Assembly: GCA_019312705.1 (NCBI GenBank) | Contig: JAFDCW010000184.1 | Location: 1 to 9,641, forward strand | Length of the DNA: 9,641 nt | Reading direction: 5' to 3' | Source of the DNA: Deltaproteobacteria bacterium | Lineage (GTDB): Bacteria; Myxococcota; Polyangia; Polyangiales; B10-G4 | In this document: positions 5,985 to 9,641 of the stretch, piece after piece | Position numbering within the stretch: the first letter of the stretch is position 1 | Layout of the letters: every line of letters begins with the position of its first letter | Notes under the pieces: generated by a model | Database searches by the model: none | Told to the model about the DNA's origin: nothing | What the model saw: the letters and a program-made list of their open reading frames with translations, nothing else | Program-made: the position numbers and the translations under genes

Positions 5985-6184
5985 GAATCGGATCATAGGG
6001 AGGCAGTCGCTGCAACCGCGACTTTCCGGTGTGCGTGCCCGGAATCGTTCGATACTGACAAACGCAACGAATGCGCCCACTCCCGCCGGCTACAGCTCGC
6101 AATCTAGCTCTGGTCGACTGCGTCGCCCTGCCGCCTTCTTGCGGGCTGGTGGACCGGACCGGACGGAGGCGCTAAACCCGCGCC
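5985..6184. other. Divergent intergenic region between the MscS and DUF2760 genes
   Basis: This stretch must hold promoters for both directions, but no consensus pair stands out. An inverted repeat AGTCGC-N7-GCGACT at 6005-6023 lies 21-39 bases upstream of the MscS start. Three near-identical GGACC units occur at about 6152-6165, and a GGAGG at about 6166-6170 lies about 15 bases before the GTG of DUF2760, rather far for a ribosome site. No small gene was found. Confidence 0.4.
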
Positions 6185-8581: not shown

Positions 8582-8809
8582 GGGAGCGGGAGCGGCGACG
8601 GGAGCGGCGGCGGGAACGGGAACGGGAGCGGGAGCGGGAGCGGCGACGGGAGCGGGAACGGGAGCGGGAGCGGGAGCGGGAGCGGCGACGGGAGCGGGAG
8701 CGGGAGCGGGAGCGGGAGCGGGAACGGGAACGGGAACGGGAACGGGAGCGGGAACGGGAACGGGAACGGGAGCGGCGACGGGAACGGGAACGGGAGCGGG
8801 GGCGGAAAC
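8582..8809 (+). repeat. 38-unit hexanucleotide tandem array (GGGAGC/GGGAAC/GGCGAC)
   Basis: Thirty-eight six-base units follow one another without a single insertion or deletion: 19 GGGAGC, 12 GGGAAC, 4 GGCGAC and one each of GGCGGC, GGGGGC and GGAAAC. G-runs of three recur every six bases, so the plus strand can form many G-quadruplexes (for example within 8690-8730). The array starts 7 bases after the Hsp70 stop. In the frame that starts at 8582 every unit encodes Gly followed by Ser, Asn, Asp or Gly. All frames are open through it, but no good protein start or end supports a gene. Confidence 0.93.
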
Positions 8810-8940: not shown

Positions 8941-9012
8941 GTGTTCTGTTTTCATGGCGGCAGGCCCTCGGCGGTGCCTTTAAAAGGGCCTGCCGCCATG
9001 AAAACAGAACAC
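8941..9012. repeat. 28-bp perfect inverted repeat over the start of the four-helix-bundle gene
   Basis: The arms 8941-8968 and 8985-9012 are exact reverse complements, with a 16-base loop containing TTTAAA. The right arm holds AAGGG (8984-8988; its first A is in the loop), the ATG at 8998 and the first five codons (MKTEH) of the downstream gene. The left arm therefore carries the same start, ATGAAAACAGAACAC, on the minus strand, where it opens a frame of only ten codons. In a transcript that begins upstream of 8941 the ribosome site would be locked in a very stable stem. Confidence 0.95.
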
Positions 9013-9345
9013 TCCAGTCGTCCGATGGTTCATCACAACTTGCGAGTCTTTCAGCGTTCGCTGCAACTCGCTCGGGTCGTGTATGGGAATCTGCCCGCGA
9101 ACTCGGCGCTTCGCGACCAGGTGAAGCGGGCGAGCCTGTCCGTAGGCGCCAACATCGCCGAGGGGTGCACGATGTCCTCACGGGCGATGCGTCGGAAGCA
9201 CTACGAAATCGCGCGCGGGTCCGCGGTCGAGACGGTTGCTCTCTACGAACTGGGCGAAGCCATCGGCGAGAGCCTGCCGGTCGGTGAAGTCCGTGAGCAC
9301 GGCGCGGCTATCGCCGCGATGCTGACCGCGATGGTGAGACGCTAA
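8998..9345 (+). CDS. Four-helix-bundle protein (S23 / 23S rRNA intervening-sequence type)
   Basis: The protein has 115 residues, the usual length for this family. The hallmark LRDQVKRASLSVGANIAEG (38-56) is followed by RRKHYEIARGSAVETVALYE (65-84) and a last helix EHGAAIAAMLTAMVRR. Together with the first helix (VFQRSLQLARVVYG, 17-30) this gives four helices. The family was first found in intervening sequences of bacterial 23S rRNA and occurs as many scattered copies; its molecular role is not known and RNA or ribosome binding is only a suggestion. The ATG at 8998 is chosen because GGG of AAGGG lies nine bases upstream and the family usually starts just before this point; the frame is open further up only through the repeats. 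The start lies inside a 28-bp inverted repeat. A strong hairpin follows the stop. Confidence 0.9.
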   Translation: MKTEHSSRPMVHHNLRVFQRSLQLARVVYGNLPANSALRDQVKRASLSVGANIAEGCTMSSRAMRRKHYEIARGSAVETVALYELGEAIGESLPVGEVREHGAAIAAMLTAMVRR

Positions 9346-9353
9346 TCGCTCTA

Positions 9354-9380
9354 ACCCGGAGGGCGTGATGCCCTCCGGGT
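9354..9380. terminator. Bidirectional hairpin terminator between two converging four-helix-bundle genes
   Basis: A perfect 11-bp stem, ACCCGGAGGGC (9354-9364) against GCCCTCCGGGT (9370-9380), has a GTGAT loop. It lies 8 bases after one four-helix-bundle gene and 14 bases past the stop of the other on the opposite strand. No T-run follows on either strand, so termination may depend on the strong stem alone. Confidence 0.65.
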
Positions 9381-9394
9381 CAGTGCATCGGGCA

Positions 9395-9577
9395 CTACCG
9401 GCAGAGCTTGAAGAGAATCGCCACGATGTGGTCGAGCCGGTCGACCGCCGCCGGCAACTCATCGGCCCCTAGGTAGCCGAGAGCCTCGGCCGTCTCGAGA
9501 CACGCCGTCGACTCCCGGGCCGACCCCATCGCATTCGCGTACCTCGCCTGCCGGTTCCGCCCGGCCGACCGGCTGCG
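9395..9577 (-). pseudogene. C-terminal part (3' exon?) of a second four-helix-bundle gene
   Basis: On the minus strand an open frame of 61 codons reads RSRSAGRNRQARYANAMGSA from 9577, then the rest to DHIVAILFKLCR and the TAG at 9397-9395. It aligns with the second half of the other four-helix-bundle protein: from the residue after NIAEG to the Gly-Ser-Ala of ARGSAVE there are 17 residues in that protein, and 17 from 9577 to the GSA of AMGSARES here. Upstream of 9577 the frame gives SPGATR instead of NIAEG and hits TAA at 9598-9596. The N-terminal half is thus missing, not merely diverged. The upstream sequence resembles the 3' end of a group II intron, so this may be a 3' exon of a spliced gene rather than a dead remnant. 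It faces the first four-helix-bundle gene across a shared hairpin. Confidence 0.75.
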
Positions 9578-9641
9578 CCGGGTGGCCCCGGGGGATTACT
9601 CCCCCGGGGCTCCCACAGATCCGGACGTGCGGATTTCCCGC
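9578..9641 (-). mobile_element. Putative 3' end of a group II intron (domains V-VI), cut by window edge
   Basis: Read on the minus strand from 9641, GCGG-GAAA-TCCGC followed by ACGTCCGGATC resembles the distal loop and 3' strand of domain V, with its GNRA-type loop. The 5' strand with the AGC catalytic triad would be just outside. A 5-base TGTGG-type joiner then leads to a second hairpin with a perfect 11-bp stem (TCCCCCGGGGC 9600-9610 / GCCCCGGGGGA 9585-9595, as plus-strand arms) and a 4-base loop, in the place of domain VI. A basal GGG/CCC pairing leaves an unpaired A at about 9583, near the expected branch point. Against this, the 3' strand has GGATC where GGTTC is usual, and the expected final AY is not obvious. 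The reverse transcriptase gene, if any, is outside. Confidence 0.45.

Follow-up and report, generated by a model that had tools for sequence, protein, structure and literature searches.

The right end of the window (the whole stretch of 9,641 nt analysed here) holds two genes of the four-helix-bundle family which converge on one hairpin (Table 1). A hairpin similar to this one is also found 3' of the gene in several copies in G001, the related MAG B10_G4 (QMMC01) whose genome was searched for comparison, and which is 89% identical to the window over ~2 kb in the MscS region. The plus-strand gene is intact and its product scores 60.5 bits against PF05635 (cut-off 33.8) and 57.9 bits against TIGR02436 (cut-off 24). 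On the minus strand, 9576-9395 holds, in frame, the second half of a gene for a 108-aa four-helix-bundle protein, directly preceded at 9641-9577 by the 3' terminal part of a group II intron (part of domain V and the entire domain VI); the last 65 bases of the intron are visible, the contig ending inside domain V.

Table 1. Coordinates of the features discussed; positions are those of the window unless a locus in another genome is named.
Feature	Position	Strand	Basis
Intact convergent four-helix-bundle gene, 115 aa, distant paralogue	8998..9345	+	PF05635 and TIGR02436
Terminator-like hairpin common to both convergent genes	9354..9380	.	read directly from the sequence
Second exon: GC of the split Gly codon, 59 codons and stop TAG	9395..9576	-	homology
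Last intron bases GGC after the D6 stem	9577..9579	-	ending as in L066 and L070
Domain VI hairpin	9580..9614	-	fold, D6 covariation, model R1
Group II intron domain V, 3' part	9618..9641	-	RF00029 and identical core in relatives
G001 matches with sequence on both sides (n = 7)	L001-L005, L007, L009
G001 match whose own contig end falls in exon 2	L009
G001 match beginning at a contig edge	L006
G001 match, decayed	L008
Three further G001 matches, short
Leader examples outside the window	L003:5716-5823, L010:5701-5803, L065:399-502, others	+
RNA model matches 5' of IS110-like transposase frames	L140:1662-1753, L141:1665-1756	-
RNA model match 5' of an IS110-like transposase frame	L144:631-722	+

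A protein search with the 56-residue piece of the interrupted gene matched 19 proteins, including eight of 108 aa that share 73-98% identity with it, and these bear out the proposal of the earlier note that the minus-strand frame is the second half of such a gene. In the 108-aa homologues the matching piece is preceded by ..PLN(V/I)AEG. The spacing of the minus-strand piece agrees with that of the true homologues (NVAEGSRSAGRNRQ); it had also been said to agree residue for residue with the gene at 8998-9345, but this was not borne out, the minus-strand piece being one residue shorter and only 31% identical to what is a distant paralogue. Exon 2 alone reaches 18.9 bits against PF05635 (cut-off 33.8); the database protein P0001, which is 98% identical over the exon-2 piece, scores 53.7 bits against TIGR02436 (cut-off 24). 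The frame of exon 2 is intact, with 59 codons without a break and a stop where it is expected. Its dN/dS against six intact copies is 0.03-0.09, based on 2 to 8.5 amino-acid-changing differences per pair, and among the intact copies themselves it is 0.04-0.13; as a comparison of sequences this shows that the family is constrained and that exon 2 has not decayed, whilst neither the date of the insertion nor function can be deduced from such ratios.

Two hairpins next to the gene and in its orientation had been read as intron domains, and by their fold and by model R1 they are indeed domains V (in part) and VI of a group II intron. The Rfam model RF00029 matches 9641-9577 (-) with 23 bits. The cut-off of 40 is not reached because the initial 11 of the model's 77 positions fall beyond the contig end; the match is truncated 5', the first 12 or so bases of domain V are absent, and a default Rfam search of the window listed no match. 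R1, a covariance model built from 10 intron relatives that share the D5 pattern, matches the window with 77 bits (E 2e-12) and its match ends at 9577; as the members of R1 were picked by a D5 pattern derived from the window, only domain VI and the 3' end are independent in this result. By fold, covariation and R1 the domain VI hairpin stands a few bases from the 3' splice site, and exon homology starts at the next base. Most of the relatives other than L066 and L070 end in GAC or GAT. The A at 9583 is presumably the branch point, judging by where it lies in group II introns generally.

The 30-nt D5 core pattern, in which three positions are free and one is ambiguous, has 20 occurrences in 11 of 385 related genomes, against none for the reversed control. 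Seven of the eight D5-core loci tested pass RF00029 with 43-49.5 bits (L080 falls below), and among the 10 relatives the D6 stems covary, nine pairs having two-sided changes. The four relatives that are complete (L086-L089) measure 1912-1970 nt and end CCCGAC, if their 5' end is set at GTGCG as we have assumed from the consensus. A group II reverse transcriptase/maturase is encoded by L091 (TIGR04416, 351.6 bits, cut-off 300), and a reverse transcriptase motif in a frame of at least 200 aa is present in five of the nine D5-identical loci scanned (L086, L087, L089, L091 and L092); it is absent from the other four, therefore broken or reverse transcriptase-less copies of the intron exist. As in the window, seven of the 20 places have a contig end no more than 60 nt 5' of the D5 core, so that the missing body of the intron is most simply explained by a break in the assembly.

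The 3' strand of domain V reads CCGGATC in all 20 relatives (L066-L085) as in the window, with A where the Rfam consensus has U. The differing base had been left free in the D5 search pattern, and from these sequences the lineage seems to lack the usual G-U pair of domain V.

The end of the intron and the start of the exon were located by separate evidence, the intron models on the one hand and homology on the other, and they meet with no gap: RF00029 and R1 both end at 9577 and exon homology starts at 9576. The abrupt loss of homology that had been noticed here is exact to the base, as all seven G001 copies with sequence on both sides align from 9576 (minus-strand position 66). The base directly 5' of exon 2 is C in the window and G in the G001 copies read, and this difference fixes the boundary between 9577 and 9576. 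The insertion site is GAG G^GC AGC, the Gly codon of NVAEG being split after its first base; the intron therefore lies within the last codon of the motif and not after it, as had been suggested, and codon 9577-9575, which had been taken as wholly exonic, includes one base of the intron. Because the Gly codon is split as G^GC, we infer that the 108-aa frame would be regained if splicing were exact. We did not adopt the idea that the NVAEG site has a special meaning, as PMC2814812 describes no preference of group II introns for conserved sites.

In G001 12 places match the last 297 bases of the window, and none of the 12 extends into the intron part. One of them, L005, is colinear with the window over 639 nt at 89% identity and without the intron, from exon 2 across the hairpin and on through the convergent gene to where its own contig ends; by this colinearity it is likely to be the orthologous empty site in a sister species. 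The empty site, in L005 and in six other copies, joins the exons exactly at the 3' exon and target site. Five group II intron ends are found in G001 by RF00029, three of them over the cut-off, and R1 finds two of the same places; none lies in this gene as far as these places can be read. That the intron might be present in every copy of the gene was also considered, and is unsupported by the G001 copies and by these intron ends.

The same holds across the related genomes, where 48 second-half matches in 44 loci (L001-L014 and L036-L065, some places being represented twice) include no intron-bearing copy at the same site. As judged by a loose regular expression, 43 of the 48 run straight into a motif of the N..EG type; the remaining five are otherwise explained: L006 begins at a contig edge, L008 is decayed, the minus-strand matches in L059 and L065 are unbroken but read NVSES or NLAES, and that in L062 (minus strand) enters a masked stretch. 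The interruption at the NVAEG site is therefore an exception. Six database proteins of 44 aa that start with MGSARES (P0013, P0014 and P0016-P0019; six of the 19 matches in one protein search and six of the seven in another) share their length and start with the gene call expected from the interrupted copy of the window (P0020), and on this likeness they may mark further interrupted copies. No match to P0001 was found in plasmids and phages, nor to alignment A2 in viral contigs.

Other copies of the gene are interrupted by other sequences. The copy in L108 (the same place as L148; G001:C398) is interrupted after RDLG by a repeat; the translation of this repeat (..KKAPREAAR..) is also found inside P0009 and P0010, and past the stop codon in L004. 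These translations point to a dispersed repeat by which other copies of this four-helix-bundle gene are broken or lengthened, and P0011 bears yet another, different insert.

The reading that we consider probable is that one copy of a repeated PF05635/TIGR02436 gene received, within the Gly codon of NVAEG and in the sense orientation, a mobile group II intron that is spliced out in frame. The intron 3' end, exon 2, their exact abutment and orientation, the intact frame of exon 2 and the uninterrupted homologous site are all directly seen. An intron body of ~2 kb with a reverse transcriptase/maturase, together with the first exon, would lie just beyond the contig end, which would have been placed there because introns present in multiple copies break assemblies. 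Splicing from the transcript would rejoin the exons in frame, and the insertion would persist as the protein is restored and other copies of the gene back it up; it may well be tolerated because the host gene is repeated and other copies are broken by other inserts. Several points count against this reading, namely that the last two intron bases are GC, where AC or AT would be more usual, that the RF00029 score in the window is below the cut-off with the 5' exon, body and reverse transcriptase all beyond the contig end, that a reverse transcriptase motif is found in only five of the nine D5-identical loci, and that no second intron-bearing copy of this gene is readable.

Some of the same observations would suit an intron that is 5'-truncated or dead, lying in a gene copy that is a pseudogene with an undecayed second half and that is not spliced. 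Only 65 nt of intron are visible, the motif-less loci amount to four of the nine, and other copies of the gene have been broken by other inserts (L108/L148, P0009, P0010 and P0011). We hold this to be unlikely, albeit a real contender, since the visible end is intact to its last base, exon 2 has not decayed and repeats explain the contig ends beside D5 (7 of 20 places). It would be very surprising if the junction proved to be chimeric, the assembly having joined an intron copy to an intact gene: although it is 65 nt away from a contig end and the genome is rich in repeats, it falls exactly at the intron 3' end as set by the relatives, and the base directly 5' of it differs (C for G), whereas a false join would be expected on shared sequence.

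The sense-oriented intron in a coding gene that the earlier note proposed is thus upheld in its main part, by the intron end that abuts the second half of the gene, by the empty homologous site and by the match to R1; its claim that such an insertion is unusual is weakened, in that the host gene is repeated, other copies of it are broken, and introns in rarely essential genes are among the placements known from PMC6003770. The interruption is for these reasons less surprising. According to this paper, bacterial group II introns are mostly intergenic or lie in non-conserved, rarely essential genes, often in mobile DNA. The arrangement seen here, a redundant gene with a sense group II intron, is of a known kind.

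The intron in the window shares with group II introns (RF00029, TIGR04416) the D5-D6 sequence, order, orientation and 3' end, and its relatives are ~2 kb long with at least one encoding a reverse transcriptase/maturase that passes TIGR04416; it differs in its place inside a protein-coding gene and in having only its 3' end on the contig. Ll.LtrB in the relaxase gene of Lactococcus (PMC6003770) is likewise a group II intron inside a protein gene, whereas here the host is a repeated four-helix-bundle gene between chromosomal genes and splicing is predicted from sequence. The host protein belongs to the family of the PF05635 23S rRNA intervening-sequence protein, 2GSC and Avd of the diversity-generating retroelements; P0001 matches the solved chain 2gsc_A (E 4e-4), and PF05635 and Avd are described as akin in PMC10053308. 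Unlike the intervening-sequence protein the gene here lies among ordinary chromosomal genes and not inside 23S rRNA, and unlike Avd it has no reverse transcriptase in the window. Among open-licence PMC papers none was found with both "four helix bundle protein" and "group II intron", and none, by title or start of abstract, on a structured leader of such genes or on such an intron. The locus adds one case of a bacterial group II intron in a position from which splicing could restore a protein, and the repeated host gene allows similar copies that have the intron to be compared with those that lack it.

The more novel lead is an RNA-like leader that lies outside the window, 5' of four-helix-bundle genes in related genomes. 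All eight leader copies in G001 are 5' of a four-helix-bundle gene or of its remaining first part. In a model built from 13 leaders, each from a different locus, a conserved GUGCUCG/CUGCGC internal loop is flanked by two covarying stems, with 93.5% of cells paired and a covariation of 0.509 against at most 0.10 in slid controls; in a larger alignment of 35 rows from 30 loci the covariation is 0.566 against at most 0.11, these rows having been fitted to the model, with several loci at places of the training leaders and three rows being reverse-strand echoes. The model matches 39 of 144 myxobacterial genomes, with up to 18 matches per genome, and in 27 of the 32 sense matches (30 loci) a four-helix-bundle match on the same strand starts 14-63 nt further on, the other five being L112 (at a contig edge), L119, L125, L132 and L134. 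The MAG copies of the leader have a Shine-Dalgarno-like AAGGAG within the outer stem. No Rfam 15 family matched over its cut-off in the 24 leader loci given. In the window the model has no significant match (best E 0.05), as would be expected if the leader lies 5' of the off-contig first exon.

On balance we favour the view that the ~90-150-nt covarying leader and the PF05635 gene directly 3' of it form an undescribed dispersed unit of myxobacteria and relatives, to which the interrupted gene would belong; it is present many times in a genome and may be an RNA-protein element that is mobile or regulates itself. If so the intron would be a passenger in a mobile-like host. An RNA partner would make the role of the four-helix-bundle family directly testable. 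A simple story of leader and gene is countered by related RNAs that stand 5' of IS110-like frames in L141, L144 and L140 (L140 and L134 being the same place). L140 and L141 are 99% identical over 1983 nt including the RNA, the IS110-like piece of L140 scores 26.9 bits with Pfam, just under the cut-off of 29, and that of L144 has no Pfam match, its assignment resting on 71% DNA identity to L140. IS110 elements encode a bridge RNA in their noncoding end, and by analogy a link between the leader RNA and this bridge RNA is possible.

The window also contains repeats of its own. A perfect 28-nt inverted repeat with 16 nt between its arms occupies 8941-9012, and since the start codon (8998) of the intact convergent gene falls in its right arm, the predicted hairpin could hide that start codon; the colinear match of L005 with the window extends through this inverted repeat. 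An array of ~37 copies of the 6-nt unit GGGAGC is found at 8582-8805, with similar repeats near four-helix-bundle genes in L003, L005, L008 and L009. Finally, a dispersed repeat of ~44 nt at ~6099-6142, between the MscS and DUF2760 genes, accounts for 20 of the 25 matches that one search of G001 gave.
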